Positions 21,778 to 54,672 of a stretch of 64,000 bases of DNA are shown piece by piece; position 1 is the first letter of the stretch; each line of letters opens with the position of its first letter. The position numbers and the translations under genes were made by a program. The stretch comes from Termitidicoccus mucosus (GTDB lineage Bacteria > Verrucomicrobiota > Verrucomicrobiia > Opitutales > Opitutaceae): positions 7,254,501 to 7,318,500 of the forward strand of contig NZ_CP109796.1 in assembly GCF_038725785.1 (NCBI RefSeq), read 5' to 3'. Under the pieces are notes generated by a model, which saw only the letters and a list, made by a program, of their open reading frames with translations, ran no database searches and was not told where the DNA came from.

Positions 21778-24624
21778 ATGAAACGCCGCCGATTTCTCCG
21801 CGATTCCGCGCTCTGCGCGACAGGTGCCGCCCTGTTTTCCTCTTCTGCGAAAGCCGCCGCCGTCGTCTCCGCCGATGGCGCTTCCCGGCCCGCCTGCGAT
21901 GCGCCGTCTCCATCCGCGCCGGGTTCGCCCGCGCTCTTCTCCGCTCCGTCCGGCTCCGCCTATGTGCGCCGCTGGAGTTCGCGCACCGCGCTCATCTGGT
22001 TCCCCGATAACCGCGCCTACTTCGACACGCCGCGCAACGAGTGGTGTTATTTCCGCAAAACCATCGCCCTTTCCGCCGCGCCCGCCGCCGCCGGACTCCG
22101 CATCTTTGCCGACGCACGCTACCGCCTCTTCGTCAACGGCGACTACATCGCGCGCGGCCCCGCCCGCAGCGACCCGCGCTGGCAGTCCTACGATGTCATC
22201 GACCTCGCCGGGCACCTTCGCGCCGGTGAAAATCTCATCGCCGTGCAGGTGCTCTATTACGGTTACAACACCGGCCAGCACCTGCCCCGCGTCCCGTGCC
22301 TAGCCGCCGAGATCGACATCACCGACGCCGCCGGCAAAACCCGCGCGCACCGCACCGACGCCTCCTGGAAAACGTTTCTCAGCGAGTCCTTCGACCGAGA
22401 CGCCCCGCGCGTGAACGGCTGCCAGGGCGCCATCGAAATTTTCGACGCCCGCCGCGAGCCGGACCGCTGGACGGAGCCAGGCTTTGACGACTCCGCCTGG
22501 CCCGCCGCCAAGGCCCGCGCCATCGGCAACGACCAGATTCCCTACAACCGGCTCCTTCCGCGCGACATTCCCATGCTGGAGGAAACCACGCTCCCCGTCT
22601 CCCGCGTCTCCGCCCCGCTCACGGTCGCCGCGCACGACGACGAACCCTTTTTCCCGCAACGCGCCCGCCTCGAACTCGACGAAATCAAGACGCCGCTGGA
22701 ATTTTCGATTTTCGATTCTCGATTTTCGATTGATGGCGCTGCCGCGCCGGAAGTGACGCTGACCGCGAAATGGAGCGGCAGCTCCCCAATCGAAAATCGA
22801 GAATCGAGAATCAAAAATCTCACCATTCCGAAATCTCCCCCGGATCGCGTCACCATTGTCACCCTCGACTTCGCCCGCGTCACGCCCGGCTATCTCCGGC
22901 TTGCCGTCACCGCGCCCGCCGGCACGCGCATCGACATCGCCTACGCCGAGGACCTCTACGAAGGCCGCGTCGCGCTCTTCCACCCGCCCGCCCAGCGTCC
23001 GCTCGACGCATTCATCCTCAAGGAGGGCCGCAACGACCTCGAAGTCGCCTTCGCCTGGAAGGGCTTCCGCTACGCGCAGCTCATCATCCGCAACCCCGGC
23101 GGCCCGCTCCGGCTCCACCGCGCCGAAATGCGCGCGCGCATGTATCCAGTCAATCAATACGGCCATGCCCTCATCGTTGCTCAAAGGAGCGCGGGCATTC
23201 CTGCCCGCGATTTCGCGGACAAGTTCCGAGCGAAGCGAGAAGCCTGCCATGTCCGCGCCCCCGGTCTCCCCGCCGCCGACGAAGGTGACGCTGATTTCCA
23301 GCGGAGGCTCCACGCCGTTTGCGCGCACACGTTGCGCGGCTGCATGCAGGACGGCTTCATCGACTCGCCCAGCCGCGAGCAGCAGCAATGGATGGGCGAC
23401 GGACGCTGGCAGGCCGTTTACAATTACTATCTGAGCGGCGACCCGCGCCTCCACCGCCGGCTGCTCGCGCAGATCGCCTGCTCCCAGGACGCCGAGGGAC
23501 TCACCAAATCCCGTTATCCCGACGGGCACGAAAACTGGTCGGCGATTCCCGCCTACTGCCTCGCGTGGGTCACCTCCTTCGAGGACTTTTATCAATTCAC
23601 CGGCGACCTCGCGCCCGCCGCCGAATTCTGGCCCAACATCATCATGGCGCTGCGCTGGTTCACGCGCTACGAGAACAAGGACGGCCTGCTCGAAAATGTT
23701 CCGTTCTGGAGCTACATCGACCTCGGCGGTTATCCCGAAAAACCCGGCCTCGACATCAACCGTGGCGGCATCCTCACCGCGCTGAACCTTCTCTTTCTCG
23801 AATCGCTCCACGCCGCCTCGCGCCTCGCCGCCGCGCTCGGCGACGCCGCGGCCCGCGAATCCTTCGACACCCGCGCCGCCGCGCTCGCCGACGCCATCGC
23901 CAGGCACCTCTGGGACGATGCCCGCGGCGCTTATCCCGACTGCAAGGTCGATGGAAAGCTCAGCGACAGCATTTCCGAGCCCACCAACGCCCTCGCGCTC
24001 CTTCACCTCGACGCCGGTGCCGGCGACACTCATAGGAGCGCGGACATTCTTGTCCGCGAAATCGCGGGCAGGAATGCCCGCGCTCCCAGTCCCGCCCTCG
24101 CCGCCGCGCGCGCGCCGCGCATCCTCGCGCACTTCGGCGCGCCCGGCACCATTATCAGCAGTCCGTTTTCGATGCCCGTTGTCATTCGCGCTCTCCTGCG
24201 CCATCGGCGCGTCGGGCTCGCATGGCAGCTCGTCCGCGAGCGCTACCAGCCCATCCTCGACGCCGGTCTCGGCACCACCTGGGAGTACTGGAAAGTGTTT
24301 TATCCGACCCCCTCCGGACGCGTCCACGCGCACAGCGCCTCGCACGCCTGGGGCGCGGGACCGCTGCTCCTGTTTTTCGAGGGTTTTGCCGGCGTGCGCG
24401 CCCTTGCGCCGGCCTTTGCGCGTTTCGAAATCTCCCCGCAGCTTCCCGAGGGCATGGACGACCTCGCCTTTGCCGTTCCCGTGCCGGGCGGCAAAATCGA
24501 GGGCCGCCATCGTCGCGCCGGAAACGAAATCCGAACCGCCTTCACCGTCCCGCCAAACACCACCGCCGTCGTCGCCGGGCGCGAGTATCCGGAAGGCAAC
24601 TACACCGCGACTGTCGCCCCGTGA
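21778..24624 (+). CDS. Tat-exported alpha-L-rhamnosidase-like protein (GH78-type)
   Basis: 948 residues. The N-terminus MKRRRFLRDSALCATGAALF is a twin-arginine signal. N-terminal beta-sandwich modules (about 60-470) contain LFVNGDYIARGPARSDPRWQ and YYGYNTGQHLP, typical of the rhamnosidase accessory domains. The six-hairpin catalytic domain (about 500-870) has DSPSREQQQWMGD at 529-541, the equivalent of the conserved GH78 DxPxRxExxxWxGD loop with acidic active-site residues. It would release terminal alpha-L-rhamnose. Three palindromic elements are read in frame inside the gene (22701-22818, 23186-23261, 24035-24086). They encode, for example, SIFDSRFSI with IENRESRIKN, DKFRAKREACHVRAPG (481-496), and RSADILVREIAGRNARAP (about 753-770). 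An AAGGA at 21760-21764 may serve as ribosome binding site. Confidence 0.84.
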   Translation: MKRRRFLRDSALCATGAALFSSSAKAAAVVSADGASRPACDAPSPSAPGSPALFSAPSGSAYVRRWSSRTALIWFPDNRAYFDTPRNEWCYFRKTIALSAAPAAAGLRIFADARYRLFVNGDYIARGPARSDPRWQSYDVIDLAGHLRAGENLIAVQVLYYGYNTGQHLPRVPCLAAEIDITDAAGKTRAHRTDASWKTFLSESFDRDAPRVNGCQGAIEIFDARREPDRWTEPGFDDSAWPAAKARAIGNDQIPYNRLLPRDIPMLEETTLPVSRVSAPLTVAAHDDEPFFPQRARLELDEIKTPLEFSIFDSRFSIDGAAAPEVTLTAKWSGSSPIENRESRIKNLTIPKSPPDRVTIVTLDFARVTPGYLRLAVTAPAGTRIDIAYAEDLYEGRVALFHPPAQRPLDAFILKEGRNDLEVAFAWKGFRYAQLIIRNPGGPLRLHRAEMRARMYPVNQYGHALIVAQRSAGIPARDFADKFRAKREACHVRAPGLPAADEGDADFQRRLHAVCAHTLRGCMQDGFIDSPSREQQQWMGDGRWQAVYNYYLSGDPRLHRRLLAQIACSQDAEGLTKSRYPDGHENWSAIPAYCLAWVTSFEDFYQFTGDLAPAAEFWPNIIMALRWFTRYENKDGLLENVPFWSYIDLGGYPEKPGLDINRGGILTALNLLFLESLHAASRLAAALGDAAARESFDTRAAALADAIARHLWDDARGAYPDCKVDGKLSDSISEPTNALALLHLDAGAGDTHRSADILVREIAGRNARAPSPALAAARAPRILAHFGAPGTIISSPFSMPVVIRALLRHRRVGLAWQLVRERYQPILDAGLGTTWEYWKVFYPTPSGRVHAHSASHAWGAGPLLLFFEGFAGVRALAPAFARFEISPQLPEGMDDLAFAVPVPGGKIEGRHRRAGNEIRTAFTVPPNTTAVVAGREYPEGNYTATVAP
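22701..22818. repeat. In-frame inverted repeat of ATCGAAA words inside the GH78-like gene
   Basis: Bases 22701-22731 and 22788-22818 are inverted copies of an iterated atcgaaaa tract with two or three mismatches. The left arm is followed by the 14-base motif GGCGCTGCCGCGCC (22735-22748), the inverse of the copy at 7143-7156. The whole element stays in the rhamnosidase reading frame and adds about 39 residues between accessory beta-strands. Confidence 0.78.
23186..23261. repeat. Family B palindromic element, in frame in GH78-like gene
   Basis: Starts with ggagcgcgggcattcctgcc and ends in a gtccgcgcccc copy of its inverse. A 26-base insert (23223-23248) interrupts it. The identical insert occurs at 26034-26059 in the GH106-like gene, and 17 bases of it occur inverted at 54591-54607. 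Read in frame, it encodes the peptide DKFRAKREACHVRAPG. Confidence 0.82.
24035..24086. repeat. Family B palindrome, uninterrupted copy, in frame in GH78-like gene
   Basis: A near-perfect 52-base palindrome made of two internal hairpins (gcggacattcttgtccgc and gcgggcaggaatgcccgc) inside outer ggagcgcg/cgcgctcc ends. It lacks the 26-base insert of the other copies. It is translated as RSADILVREIAGRNARAP between a conserved helix and the following catalytic-domain segment, so it looks like a late insertion. Confidence 0.82.
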
Positions 24625-24948
24625 CCACCGCGCAGCGAAGGCCGGCGGTGCCCAATCGTTCCGGCCGAAGCGGCATTCTCATCGAAAATCCGCAATACCA
24701 ATTCGGAGCCATTTTTAGACTTTAGCGACCTCTGTTTTTTGGAGGGCCGAGCTCCTGCGAGGCCGTCGCGGTTAACCGCCACGTTTTTCCGCGACGGCCT
24801 CGCAGGAGCTCGGCCCTCCAAAAGGATAAATCTCATTCGCAAATGGTATAATCCGGCGCCCTTGCGTTCAACCGTTGACTGACATCCGGTTTGCGCGCCG
24901 CCCCGCCGCAACGCATTGAAGTCATTGCCGTCCCCCTCTTTTCCCTTC
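24625..24948. other. 324-base intergenic gap between the two rhamnosidase genes
   Basis: No gene is seen. The gap contains iterated words (aaaatccgcaatac at 24685-24698), the perfect family C palindrome at 24737-24823, a family-flanking segment ctcattcgcaaatggtat (24832-24849) that runs into tataat (24847-24852), and ttgactgaca near 24877. The last two could be promoter parts, but they are in the wrong order to form one promoter. Confidence 0.6.
24737..24823. repeat. Family C perfect 35-bp inverted repeat with 17-base loop
   Basis: Arms 24737-24771 and 24789-24823 are exact reverse complements beginning ttttggagggccgagctcct. The stem would form a very stable hairpin and, flanked by T and A runs, could terminate transcription in both directions between the GH78-like and GH106-like genes. 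Confidence 0.88.
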
Positions 24949-27900
24949 ATGTCCCCTCCGCACATCCTCCGTCCCGCGACGCTCGCGTTTTGCTGGCTTT
25001 TTTCGGTCATCAGCTTTCAGCCCCCGGTCTTTTCCTCCCCCACGCCGCTCGAATCCGGCTTCGACCAGCCGCCCGCCACCGCCCGCCCCCTCACGTGGTG
25101 GCACTGGATTGCGGGCAACGTCACCAAGGCCGGCATCACCGCAGACCTCACCGCGATGAAGGAAGCCGGCATTGCCGGCGTGCAGCTCTTCGACGCGGGC
25201 ATCTACCTGCCGTCCGGCCCCGTGCGCTACGGCACCGACAACTGGCACGATCACGTCCAGTTCGCCATCCGCGAAGCCGCCAGGCTCGACTTGGATGTCT
25301 CGCTCATGAACACCCCCGGATGGTCCGCCAGCGGCGGCCCCTGGGTGACGCCGGAGCGCTCCATGAAAAAGCTCGTCTGGACCGAAACAGGCGTCGTCGT
25401 CGCTGGCGCCGAAGTTACGAGTGGCAAGTCTCAAGTGCCAAGTGTCGCCGTCGCTGTCCGGCTGCCGCAGCCGGAGGCGAAGGAGAACTTTTACCGCGAC
25501 ATCGCCGTGCTCGCGGTTCCTGCCGACGGCGCCCGGCCTGTCCTCGACGCCGCGAACATCGTCTCCGCGAAATCCACCTCGGGCGTCCGCCTCGACGCCG
25601 CGATTGACGGAGACCCGGCCACCGCGGCCGCCTTTCCCGCGCAGCCCTCGCATGTCCTCACCTTCGCCTTGCGCGCCCCCGCGGCCGCCTCGCGCCTCGC
25701 CCTGCAACTGAACGGCCTCGAAATGCCCTTCAAGGGACGCGGCGCCCTGCGCGCCTCCGACGACGGAACGACTTTCACCGTCGTGAAGGAATTCCAATTC
25801 GAGGCCGCGCCGGATGCCGGGGAAGCGCAGATCACCGTGGGTTTCAAGCCGGTCACGGCGCGCTTTTTCCGCGTCAGCCTTTCCACGACCAAGGCGCCAA
25901 AACAACCCGCCGCCTTTTCCATCGCCGAGCTTTCCCTGACGCATGACGCGGCCATCCCCGAGCTCCAGCCCAACCGCATCCGCATGAATGCGTCCCCGGT
26001 CCCGCGCGCCGCCGCCCAAAGGAGCGAGGACAAGTTCCGAGCGAAGCGAGAAGCCTGCCATGTCCGCGCTCCCGGTGTCGCCGCCGTCCTGTCGCGCGAC
26101 GACATTCACGATCTCACCGCCTTCATGAAGACCGACGGCAGCCTCTCTGCCAAACTGCCGCCCGGGCGCTGGACGATTCTGCGTTTCGGCTTCACCTCCA
26201 CCGGGGCGAAAAACCACCCGGCGGTGCCCGAGGGACACGGGCTGGAAATCGACAAGCTCGACGCGGATGCCGTCGCCTTCCAGTTCGAGCAATCCGTCGG
26301 GCGCATCATCCGCGACGCCGGGCCGTTCGCCGGGAAAACCCTCACCGGGTTGCTCTTCGACAGCTTCGAGGCTGGCTTCCAGAATTGGACGGACCGCTTC
26401 CCGGAGCAGTTTCGCGCCCTGCACGGCTACGACTTCGTGCCGCTGCTGCCCCTCGTCACGGGGCGCGTCATCGAATCGCAGGCGTTCGCCGACTGCGTGC
26501 TCCATGACTTTCGCGCCACCGTCAACCATGGTTTTAAAGAAAACTACATCGGCGTCATGCAGCGCCTCGCGCACGCGCACGGGATGAAACTCTATTGCGA
26601 GTCCTACGGCGGGCCGCTCATCGCGGCGGTCAACGGGCCGAAAATCGACGTTCTCATGGGCGAATTCTGGCTGCATTCGCGCTTCCCCTCGCGGCTCAAG
26701 TTCGCCGCCTCCGCCGCCAACCTCCTCGACAAGCCCGTCGTCGCCGCCGAGTCGCTCAGCGCCCGTCCCGAGGAGGACGGCTGGGGTGCCTCGCTGCCCG
26801 CGCTCAAGCGCCCCGGCGACCATGCCTTCGCCAGCGGCATCAATCGCTTCATCCTCCACACTTACGCGCACCAGCCCCGCGAGTCCGCGCCGGGCTTCAC
26901 CCTCGGGCGCTACGGCACGCGCTTCAACCGCCTCAACACCTGGTGGCCGCACCTGCGCGCCTGGACGGACTACATCGCGCGCTCGCAATTCCTGCTGCAA
27001 CAGGGCTGGCGCCACGCCGACCTGCTGCTGCTGCAAAACGAGGACCTCGGCCACGCCTTCCCCGCGACCGAACTCAAGCGCCTGCCCGCCGGCTACGACT
27101 TCGACTTCGCCTATCCCGCCAGCCTCCCGGCCATGCGCGTCGAAAACGGCGTCATCTCCCTTCCTCACGGCCCGCGCTGGCGCGTCGTGGTGACGCCGGC
27201 GTTTCCCTGGGCGGCGGAAGCCGCCACGCTGCGCTGGCTGCGCGACGCCGTCCGCTCGGGCGTGCTGCTGGTCGGCAACCCGCCCGAGTGCCCCGCCGGT
27301 CTCGCCGACCTTCGGCGACAGCAAGACTTCGACGCGCTCGTCGCCGAACTCTGGCGCGGTTTGTCGGCGGGGAAAAATCCCGAAAAACAAATCGGCGCCG
27401 GCTTCGTCTCCCGCGCGCCCGTCGGCGAGGCGCTCAAGGCGCACGGCATCATCCGCGACCTCGCGTGGCCGGGGGCGGAGGCGCTCGCGGGCGACGGCGA
27501 GTCCGGGCTGGGTTTTCTTCACCGCCGCACCGCGGCGGGCGACGATGTGTATTTTGTTTTCAACTACACCGACACCACCTTCGCCGCGCCGGTCGATTTC
27601 CGCGTTGCCGGACGCCGCCCCGAACTTTGGGACGCCCTCTCCGGGAAGCGCGCCCCCGCGCCGTTTTTTGAGACGCAGGGGGCGGTCACACGCGTTCCGC
27701 TTTCCCTCGAGACCAACGCCTCCGTCTTCGTCGTTTTCCCGGCGGGTGCGCCGCTTTGTAGGGCGCGACCTTGCGTCGCGCCGCGAATGACGGATGGAGA
27801 AAATTCGCGGCCTGACACAAGGTCAGGCCCTACCGCCCTCCTGCCCGGCACCATTTTCCTGAATGCCCGCTACTACCAGCCCGCCGCCGGCCAATCGGCA

Positions 27901-28506
27901 TTCCGCATTCCGCAATCCGCATTGGAAGGCCCGTGGACGCTCGAGTTTGCCAACAAAACCCTCGGCACGCCGGACTCCATTGTCCTCGAAAAACTCGTCC
28001 CGTGGAACGAGCACGACGACGACGCCATCCGGCACTATTCGGGCACGGGCATCTACCGCAAAACTTTGAAGCTGCCGGCGGACTTCGCCGCGGGCGCGCG
28101 CCGCCTCATCCTCGACTTGGGGCAGGTGGCCGACATCGCCGAGGTGCGCGTCAACGGGCGTATTGTCGCCACGCTGTGGACGCCGCCGCGCCGCGCCGAC
28201 CTCACGGATTTTCTCCGCGCCGGCGACAATGCCCTCGAAATCCGCGTGACGAACACCTGGGTCAACCGCCTCATCGGCGACGAGCGCATTCCGGTCGATT
28301 ACGGCTACCAGCCGGAAGGCACCAGCAAGTTTACCGACGGACGCCTGCTGGAGCTTCCGGCGTGGATCAGCAATCCCGAGGGCGGCGCGAAAAATCCACG
28401 CCACACCTTCAGCACGTGGAAACACTACGACGCCGATTCCCCGCTGCACCCCGCCGGCCTGCTCGGCCCGGTCCGGCTGGAAGCCTATCGCGAACTCATC
28501 CCCTGA
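24949..28506 (+). CDS. GH106-like alpha-L-rhamnosidase, secreted
   Basis: 1185 residues from the ATG at 24949, which opens the signal peptide (LAFCWLFSVISFQPPVFS). Right after it the sequence ARPLTWWHWIAGNVTKAGIT, then DLTAMKEAGIAGVQLFD, is the N-terminal signature of GH106. The (beta/alpha)8 core runs to about residue 800 (LLFDSFEAGFQNWTDRFPEQ, YCESYGGPL), and the C-terminus is a galactose-binding-like sandwich (ADIAEVRVNGRIVATLWTPP). The enzyme would release alpha-L-rhamnose from rhamnogalacturonan or related polymers. Four repeat elements are read in frame: a CAAGTA tract (25417-25448), a family B copy (26021-26072, giving DKFRAKREACHVRAPG at 361-376), a gtagggc palindrome (27758-27833) and an aatccgc tract (27892-27926). 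The family is normally 800-1100 residues, and the insertions explain part of the excess. Confidence 0.86.
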   Translation: MSPPHILRPATLAFCWLFSVISFQPPVFSSPTPLESGFDQPPATARPLTWWHWIAGNVTKAGITADLTAMKEAGIAGVQLFDAGIYLPSGPVRYGTDNWHDHVQFAIREAARLDLDVSLMNTPGWSASGGPWVTPERSMKKLVWTETGVVVAGAEVTSGKSQVPSVAVAVRLPQPEAKENFYRDIAVLAVPADGARPVLDAANIVSAKSTSGVRLDAAIDGDPATAAAFPAQPSHVLTFALRAPAAASRLALQLNGLEMPFKGRGALRASDDGTTFTVVKEFQFEAAPDAGEAQITVGFKPVTARFFRVSLSTTKAPKQPAAFSIAELSLTHDAAIPELQPNRIRMNASPVPRAAAQRSEDKFRAKREACHVRAPGVAAVLSRDDIHDLTAFMKTDGSLSAKLPPGRWTILRFGFTSTGAKNHPAVPEGHGLEIDKLDADAVAFQFEQSVGRIIRDAGPFAGKTLTGLLFDSFEAGFQNWTDRFPEQFRALHGYDFVPLLPLVTGRVIESQAFADCVLHDFRATVNHGFKENYIGVMQRLAHAHGMKLYCESYGGPLIAAVNGPKIDVLMGEFWLHSRFPSRLKFAASAANLLDKPVVAAESLSARPEEDGWGASLPALKRPGDHAFASGINRFILHTYAHQPRESAPGFTLGRYGTRFNRLNTWWPHLRAWTDYIARSQFLLQQGWRHADLLLLQNEDLGHAFPATELKRLPAGYDFDFAYPASLPAMRVENGVISLPHGPRWRVVVTPAFPWAAEAATLRWLRDAVRSGVLLVGNPPECPAGLADLRRQQDFDALVAELWRGLSAGKNPEKQIGAGFVSRAPVGEALKAHGIIRDLAWPGAEALAGDGESGLGFLHRRTAAGDDVYFVFNYTDTTFAAPVDFRVAGRRPELWDALSGKRAPAPFFETQGAVTRVPLSLETNASVFVVFPAGAPLCRARPCVAPRMTDGENSRPDTRSGPTALLPGTIFLNARYYQPAAGQSAFRIPQSALEGPWTLEFANKTLGTPDSIVLEKLVPWNEHDDDAIRHYSGTGIYRKTLKLPADFAAGARRLILDLGQVADIAEVRVNGRIVATLWTPPRRADLTDFLRAGDNALEIRVTNTWVNRLIGDERIPVDYGYQPEGTSKFTDGRLLELPAWISNPEGGAKNPRHTFSTWKHYDADSPLHPAGLLGPVRLEAYRELIP
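25417..25448. repeat. In-frame CAAGTG-type iterated tract in GH106-like gene
   Basis: Degenerate repeats of a caagtg word encode VTSGKSQVPSV. The tract matches the intergenic/stop-codon tract at 8681-8714 over most of its length, including the locally shared VTSGK reading. Confidence 0.6.
26021..26072. repeat. Family B element, in frame in GH106-like gene
   Basis: A truncated family B palindrome: ggagcgaggacaa, the 26-base insert (26034-26059) identical to 23223-23248, then atgtccgcgctcc. It is read in the same frame as the copy in the GH78-like gene, giving the identical 16-residue peptide in two unrelated enzymes. Confidence 0.85.
27758..27833. repeat. Family D palindrome (gtagggc...gccctac), in frame in GH106-like gene
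   Basis: Arms 27758-27788 and 27803-27833 are inverted copies of 31 bases with five mismatches. The insertion encodes LCRARPCVAPRMTDGENSRP and the following DTRSGPTA, between the catalytic-domain end (SVFVVFPAG) and the next strand (TIFLNARYY). It is unusually Cys/Arg-rich for this protein. Confidence 0.8.
27892..27926. repeat. In-frame aatccgc/attccgc iterated tract in GH106-like gene
   Basis: The words attccgc, attccgc, aatccgc follow each other, bounded by ccaat at the left and attgg at the right. The tract encodes SAFRIPQSALEG. It resembles the tracts at 11858-11897 and 8753-8773. Confidence 0.55.
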
Positions 28507-54517: not shown

Positions 54518-54665
54518 GGAGCGCGGGCATTCCTGCCCGCGAAATGGAGGGACGGTCTCCGTGCCGTCCGCTCCGGCGCTTGTCAGGCAGCTCGCTTCGC
54601 TCGGAACTCTTTCCTCTTTATCTTTTCTCGTCCCACACCGGACGGCACGGAGGCCGTCCCTCCAT
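54518..54665. repeat. Composite palindromic element (family B hairpin plus 26-bp inverted repeat)
   Basis: Begins with a family B half element (ggagcgcgggcattcctgcc, 54518-54542). Directly next to it is an inverted repeat with arms 54544-54569 and 54640-54665 (one mismatch; ggagggacggtctccgtgcc). The loop contains the inverse of the family B insert (54591-54607) and a copy of the pyrimidine arm seen at 301-335. It fills the gap between the giant gene stop (54513) and the next start (54673). Confidence 0.82.
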
Positions 54666-54672
54666 TTTTCCC

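Follow-up and report, generated by a model that had tools for sequence, protein, structure and literature searches.

Two layers of small nested repeats within and between genes of Termitidicoccus mucosus and related Opitutaceae

Two rhamnosidase genes of Termitidicoccus mucosus (Opitutaceae) carry an identical 16-residue peptide, DKFRAKREACHVRAPG, which probably records a double event, in that a small repeat lying within each gene was itself entered by a second, still smaller one. The genes lie in a window of 64,000 nucleotides (nt), positions 7,254,501-7,318,500 of the forward strand of NZ_CP109796.1 (assembly GCF_038725785.1), which we analysed together with the whole source genome (G000, 7.92 Mb) and with relatives that include the sister species G077 and the genomes G046 and G102; numbers beginning with L denote individual regions. 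The repeats form two nested layers. The outer layer is a hairpin headed by GGAG that is similar to repetitive extragenic palindromic (REP) sequences, while the inner layer consists of units of 26 or 29 nt that have probably been inserted into pre-existing repeats.

The occurrence of the same peptide in two rhamnosidases of different families had been reported in an earlier note, made from the letters of the window without database searches. Both copies were found where the note had placed them, each in forward frame 0, and Pfam supports a GH78-like host (Bac_rhamnosid6H, PF17389, E 7.8e-27) and a GH106 host (PF17132); in PDB sequence alignments the former matched best 2okx, Rhamnosidase B, and the latter 6q2f and 5mqm. 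The note attributed the peptide to a palindrome. A hairpin arm does contribute to it, and the peptide proved to be encoded by the arm of an outer hairpin plus a 26-nt unit nested in it, the unit being no perfect palindrome. The arms around the common 26-nt core are GGAGCGCGGACA/TGTCCGCGCTCC, and the 87 and 54 nt around the GH78 and GH106 copies folded better than shuffled sequences (z -3.3 and -2.1, respectively). A 26-base insert was likewise present as predicted, with coordinates (23223-23248) that were one base too low. The absence of stops, also pointed out in the note, is real but not special, as none of the six frames contains a stop, either in the outer dimer or in the unit within its loop. 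A search of the entire genome, which the note had proposed, returned the 18-nt core of the unit 24 times with up to one mismatch, compared with 0 for the reversed control, so its recurrence is not due to chance. When the search was confined to the window, a 15-mer with three mismatches was no commoner than in shuffles, and the signal rests on exact matches.

The inner unit, TTCCGAGCGAAGCGAGAAGCCTGMCA, is 26 nt long and replaces two bases, nearly always AA, of the host repeat, giving a net gain of 24 nt. Its 84 distinct contexts span quite different repeats, namely a GGAGCGCGG hairpin, GCAGGTTTGGAAACCTGC, GGGCGGTTTCGCCG, a CTTTCTCTTTC palindrome, GCCCCGTCG, arrays of the heptamers AAATCCC and TCGAAAA, and isolated examples, GCGGAAT among them. 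The unit is thus not bound to the one palindrome to which the note had tied it. For 40 of 83 copies an empty counterpart was found in which the flanks were exactly 2 nt apart (10-nt flanks, one mismatch allowed), while controls in which the left and right flanks of different copies were paired gave 5, 1, and 2 of 83. The replaced bases were AA in nearly all the examples printed, which came from six families, with AG in one GGGCGGT example; the base to their left was mostly G or C, and the two bases become TT...CA. The distance between the arms of the REP-like hairpin was 2 nt in 104 of 137 cases, 26 nt in 13, and 29 nt in 2, and that between the arms of GCAGGTTTGG was 2 nt in 15 of 27 and 26 nt in 11, filled-to-empty ratios carrying no meaning here because the DNA examined was biased towards filled sites. 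AAATCCC and GCCCCGTCG gave many other spacings, since such short patterns also match elsewhere.

Two orthologous sites were found in a filled state in T. mucosus and in an empty one in G077. The GH78 orthologue of G077, which is 81% identical, shares the outer dimer, in position as well as in frame, and lacks the unit; in G046 a DNA alignment revealed other sequence at this site, with no recognizable outer repeat. The cleanest pair is a GH106 paralogue (G000 C1:7204335-7207559; C88 in G077) that has the dimer at the same site in both species and the unit, a variant in reverse orientation, in G000 alone. Exactly 24 nt have been gained there, turning IPARD into MAGMSLRSEPARD, and the host repeat is otherwise conserved around the unit. 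At the GH106 site within the window, the five closest homologues (L168-L170, L172, and L173) show a gap, and in five that are more distant (L174-L178) the place is taken by different sequence, variable in length. The peptide itself was in none of the 10 usable GH106 homologues, nor was it present in the GH78 genes of G077 and G046, which supports the view of the earlier note that the match does not reflect protein homology. The protein alignments leave out open reading frames (ORFs) on the wrong strand, i.e., L171 for GH106 and G046, L185, and L189 for GH78.

A second unit, TTTCGAGGCCGAAGGCCGACAGTCYGCCA, of 29 nt and with a net gain of 27 nt, behaves in the same manner: for 18 of the 22 copies, found by approximate matching, there was an empty counterpart, always with 2 nt. 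It occurred in six of eight genomes searched, all eight having been picked for carrying the 26-nt unit. Its stem, GGCC-GAA-GGCC, has the variants GCGC-GAA-GCGC and GGGC-GAA-GCCC. In 23 distinct variants, six cells were changed on both sides compared with 1.0 in shuffles, and the covariation score was equalled in 0 of 500 shuffles; of five measures, two stayed within the range of the shuffles (see below). No covariation was seen for the alternative stem preferred by the folding program. Judged from these sequence comparisons, the covariation is suggestive of a structured unit. We also considered whether net gains in multiples of three had been selected as such and rejected the idea, two of two units not being significant.

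The outer repeat was represented in G000 by 99 half-hairpins with three mismatches at most, many of them in inverted pairs about 28 nt apart; the element is often an inverted dimer of about 52 nt. None of the 99 listed matches to the pattern, which began with GGAG and allowed three mismatches, starts with GT; as there is no GTAG-type tag at the foot of the hairpin, we call the element REP-like. The matches formed 87 elements, of which 68 were taken as outer ones, the pattern missing diverged half-hairpins (e.g., L095, L106, and L108). A codon-usage model trained on G000 and applied to 300 bases on each side placed 31 of the 68 in one continuous gene frame, 4 between differing frames, and 3 between differing strands; for the remaining 30, coding sequence was indicated on one side or on neither. 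This count leaves out a chance match (L002:1800) and includes the GH106 site, whose mutated arm was missed by the pattern, with the totals unchanged; L107, also missed and in the same frame, stands outside it.

The in-gene elements strongly preferred a single reading frame. In G000, 27 of the 31 read RSAGIPARDIADKNVRAP or, in the other orientation, SADILVREIAGRNARAP, with GARAF in three and ERG in one, and in G077 all 8 in-frame elements used the same frame as judged by the first arm (19 scored, of which 1 lay between differing frames and 10 had one or no coding side). Relative to equal use of the frames, the p values were 2.6e-9 and 1.5e-4, respectively. The kept frame RSAGIPARDIADKNVRAP is soluble and free of cysteine, while the unused ones are hydrophobic or contain two cysteines. 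The count for G077 comes from 20 regions, which take in most of 26 places listed among 55 matches, and is a partly non-independent replicate, at least L232 being orthologous to a site in G000; in L233 the second arm lies in another phase. Elements near the ends of regions were left out (4 in G077 and 2 in G102). Three apparently paralogous regions, L038, L041, and L044, were counted singly; when they were merged and the GH106 site was removed, the result was 24 of 28 (p 4.7e-8). In these three, the flanking peptide is the same and the outer dimer, in frame, is placed identically, which suggests that the dimer was duplicated together with the gene; L038, the one scanned, has GH2 domains. The claim of the note that small repeats lie in many genes and are kept in frame was thus borne out; its further claim, that selection is the cause, is one that we share as a probable reading of the bias.

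Many of the genes carrying the repeats encode well-known proteins. A Pfam match was obtained for 26 of the 28 host frames scanned, which contained outer elements or units. The hosts include valyl-tRNA synthetase (ValS), dihydropteroate synthase, UvrA, Tex, Der/EngA, a pyridine nucleotide-disulphide oxidoreductase, histidine kinases, autotransporters, penicillin amidase, and several carbohydrate-active enzymes; for ValS and Der, the specific domain had a single match each in the genome. In comparison with solved structures, the ValS insert falls just past the last well-aligned residue (483/694) and before a weak second match at 541/712, and the Der insert falls between the two G domains, both being outside the aligned core, while that in dihydropteroate synthase is in a loop, where it replaces about four residues. 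The insert positions in the two rhamnosidases (948-1196 amino acids) were judged from PDB sequence alignments: the GH78 insert lies between two aligned domains of 2okx (query 462 to 514 versus chain 537 to 552), and at the GH106 site 6q2f has residues of other sequence. In L075 the Pfam match ends just ahead of the insert, and this gene may be damaged. The dihydropteroate synthase gene (L004, G000 C1:2777126-2780143) contains two successive units, housed in separate but neighbouring AAATCCC repeats.

The repeats have a narrow distribution. An exact 23-mer of the 26-nt unit was found in 55 stretches of a collection of 84,980 species, from which our own records were possibly left out, and all the records were titled Opitutaceae, Ereboglobus, or Opitutus; it was in none of the viral contigs. 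Allowing one mismatch, this 23-mer was present in 8 of 150 genomes of the family, which belong to 3 of 49 genera; the two other species of the genus had 41 and 83 copies. The outer hairpin was found in 5 of the 150. The 86 bases around the GH106 copy had no match among plasmids and phages, and Rfam at gathering scores had none in the window. As for candidate enzymes, Y1_Tnp was present in 135 of the 150 genomes, including all 8 with the unit; occurring almost throughout the family, it does not follow the units and is uninformative. The reverse transcriptase domain PF00078 was found in five of the eight genomes tried, i.e., in 5 of 6 with the unit (not in G046, which is 72% complete) and in 0 of 2 without it, genomes too few to support a link.

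These observations are probably best explained by a model of two nested layers. GGAG-headed hairpins would have spread through the chromosome, genes included, and the copies within genes would have survived mostly in one of three frames, the soluble and cysteine-free one, through purifying selection rather than through choice of target. Units resembling small dispersed repeats (SDRs) would have entered pre-existing repeats, these hairpins among them, in place of two bases. Since the net gains of 24 and 27 nt are both divisible by three, a unit landing in a tolerated in-gene repeat lengthens the protein without shifting the frame. The rhamnosidase peptide would be the product of one event of each kind, in this order, seen in two genes. 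We favour, with moderate confidence, movement of the unit as a structured single strand, possibly a DNA or RNA hairpin on which an enzyme acts in trans, with spread of ready-made composites within host families likely on top of it.

Several results weigh against this model or parts of it. No 2-nt empty counterpart was found in the DNA examined for 43 of the 83 copies, AT rather than AA is replaced in the GCGGAAT family, and the REP arms also gave 12 gaps of 16-20 nt, some at least being due to the pattern ending inside a variant unit. Copies in one host family may stem from one insertion followed by spread of the composite, in which case independent events would number about as many as the families, not 83. 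As to structure, the 26-nt unit has no predicted fold of its own, and the two stricter covariation measures for the 29-nt stem stayed within the range of the shuffles: pairs with a double change numbered 2 (of 4 pairs) against 0.9 (89 of 500 shuffles), and further pair types 4 against 2.8 (74 of 500). The hairpin context was weak on the whole: a stem of at least 5 bp across the junction was found for 45 of the 83 copies, compared with a mean of 42% (maximum 52%) for re-paired flanks, and the AAATCCC arrays form no stem across it, on account of which loop targeting was rejected as a general rule. Concerning the frame, a unit in the kept frame adds one cysteine, and in G102 none of 14 outer elements scored was in a gene, the model having been trained on G000. 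No enzyme could be linked to either layer: the GGAG hairpin was absent from about 1.5 kb on either side of the seven Y1_Tnp loci of G000, neither the 26- nor the 29-nt unit (up to 7 or 8 mismatches) was found in these loci, and no unit was found in 12 RVT_1 loci examined. Since Y1_Tnp, moreover, does not track the units, a link to REP-associated tyrosine transposases (RAYTs) was rejected. Two of the seven loci hold hairpins of other sequence.

The unit need not be mobile at all if old composites were copied around within each family of repeats, whether by gene conversion or by recombination. Filled forms in one family do have common marker bases (GCAGGTTGGG before the unit versus GCAGGTTTGG when empty), which makes spread of composites within families likely, and the units are more alike than their flanks. 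Yet the same unit with the same type of junction occurs in six families without common arms, and at an orthologous site exactly 24 nt were added to an otherwise conserved repeat, so we hold immobility of the unit to be unlikely. Template switching or slippage at hairpins during replication would fit the nature of the hosts, which are mostly palindromes or tandem heptamers and as such prone to slippage. It would have to generate the same inserts, of 26 or 29 nt and each in place of two bases, in unrelated hosts, including the stemless AAATCCC arrays, and next to bases that differ between families; inserts of fixed size replacing two bases in unrelated hosts point to a dedicated process instead, and slippage appears very improbable.

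The other two alternatives concern the peptides. The frame bias could reflect a codon-phase preference of the inserting outer element, which may favour bases typical of one codon position. Against this, the bias holds for both orientations of the dimer, which yield different peptides, the rejected frames are those that are hydrophobic or contain two cysteines, and the 31 of 68 scored elements lying in frame in genes are below the usual coding share of a bacterial genome. We therefore consider a phase preference improbable and purifying selection the likelier cause. A conserved role of the peptide in the function of rhamnosidases might be suggested by 16 identical residues in two enzymes assigned to one sugar and by the residues, of other sequence, that distant GH106 homologues and 6q2f have at the site. 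This explanation can practically be dismissed given the gap in the closest GH106 homologues, the absence of the peptide from all 10 usable ones, the unit-free GH78 orthologue of G077, and the presence of the same unit, in other frames, in the genes of ValS, dihydropteroate synthase, and UvrA and in intergenic repeats.

The features of the window are collected in Table 1. At the site of the second outer dimer of the GH78-like gene, G077 has two expanded forms; the composite repeat of this gene is mostly missing from the G046 orthologue and is replaced by other sequence in G077. The GH106 reading frame also runs through a GTAG-tagged hairpin dimer (GTAGGGC...GCCCTAC, 27758-27833), which belongs to a family other than the GGAG repeats, and through heptamer-like repeats of the AAGTGGC type (25418-25446, TSGKSQVPS) and the GCATTCC type (27898-27924, SAFRIPQSAL). 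The stretch between the two genes contains a palindrome (24737-24823) whose 42-bp arms are 93% complementary, with 3 nt between them. A perfect inverted repeat of the CTTTCTT type (301-378; 35 bp, 8 nt between the arms) resembles one of the host families of the unit and contains no unit.

Table 1. Genes and repeats in the 64,000-nt window
Feature	Position	Strand	Remarks
GH78-like alpha-L-rhamnosidase gene	21778..24624	+	Host of three repeat insertions; Pfam PF17389, PF08531, PF05592, PF17390
TTTTCGA-heptamer-armed composite repeat in GH78	22701..22818	+	In frame
Outer REP-like dimer in GH78	23186..23261	+	Two GGAG-headed hairpins in inverted orientation; in frame, RSAGIPARDFADK..HVRAP
DNA for the 16-residue peptide in GH78	23218..23265	+	DKFRAKREACHVRAPG; translation, forward frame 0
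Inner 26-nt unit in GH78	23224..23249	+	TTCCGAGCGAAGCGAGAAGCCTGCCA; in loop of second hairpin; net +24 nt vs empty form
Second outer REP-like dimer in GH78	24035..24086	+	In frame (RSADILVREIAGRNARAP); without inner unit
GH106 alpha-L-rhamnosidase gene	24916..28506	+	Host of second peptide copy; Pfam Glyco_hydro_106 PF17132, E 8.8e-172
Outer single hairpin in GH106	26021..26072	+	GGAGCGAGGACAAG / TGTCCGCGCTCC; one mismatch vs family
DNA for the peptide in GH106	26029..26076	+	DKFRAKREACHVRAPG; translation, forward frame 0
Inner 26-nt unit in GH106	26035..26060	+	Identical to 23224-23249
Diverged copy of the inner unit	54581..54606	-	In repeat composite 54518-54667, after GGAG hairpin

The outer layer has known counterparts. 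REPs within ORFs have been described, Opitutus terrae having the most intragenic GTAG repeats, uvrA included (PMC3733652), so that REPs inside genes were already known from the same bacterial family, and the in-gene repeats are not new to Verrucomicrobiota as the earlier note had supposed. The O. terrae repeats are similar to ours in being tagged palindromes and inverted dimers, often in intact ORFs, with uvrA as a host and a case of two insertions in one gene; unlike them, ours have the tag GGAG in place of GTAG, GYAG, GYRG, GTRG, GTMG, or GTGG, and no RAYT-type gene flanked by GGAG repeats was found among the seven Y1_Tnp loci of G000. In the text of PMC3733652 that was consulted, there is no mention of a nested 26-nt unit or of one favoured frame. 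Rickettsia palindromic elements (RPEs), of about 150 bp (PMC10969869), are inserted in frame into unrelated genes, where they occupy regions exposed to solvent (PMC3767692, PMC10969869). The likeness to our outer elements, 31 of 68 of which are in frame in unrelated genes, is one of behaviour, and while Rickettsia orthologues carry RPE insertions at the same locus (PMC3767692), the comparison of sites made here showed differences between two sister species. The GC clusters of yeast mitochondria are small GC-rich palindromes (42 nt in one studied) that look mobile and merge together by a mechanism described as open (PMC4478555); unlike what is reported there, two bases are replaced here and no duplication was seen.

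No report of nested units in Verrucomicrobiota was found in the literature searched, which lacks most subscription papers. We know of no accepted answer to the question of how elements under 30 nt move. The present system offers a sharp insertion rule, filled and empty states in sister species, and two units that behave alike, which makes candidate enzymes and strands directly testable, and it constitutes a countable natural experiment on the peptide insertions that proteins tolerate, with three open frames of which one is mostly kept. The SDRs of Nostoc, according to Elhai et al. in 2008, are reportedly 21-27 nt long, are structured with compensatory changes, are confined to one clade, and are said to be embedded in tandem heptamers and other repeats in a nested manner. 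Our units differ from them in phylum, in length (26 and 29 nt, the latter beyond that range), in the replacement of two bases, and in their entry into coding DNA within repeats. It is a tentative thought, with somewhat less than even chances, that a superfamily of mini-elements, 26-29 nt in size, exists in the Opitutaceae, with members that move as a hairpin by an undescribed mechanism (AA -> TT...CA inside other repeats), that arose independently of the cyanobacterial SDRs, and that remodel proteins, essential enzymes included, in exact steps of 8 or 9 residues. Of the systems compared, it is the SDRs that the inner units appear to resemble most, the 26-nt unit likewise being found in AAATCCC and TCGAAAA arrays and in palindromes.

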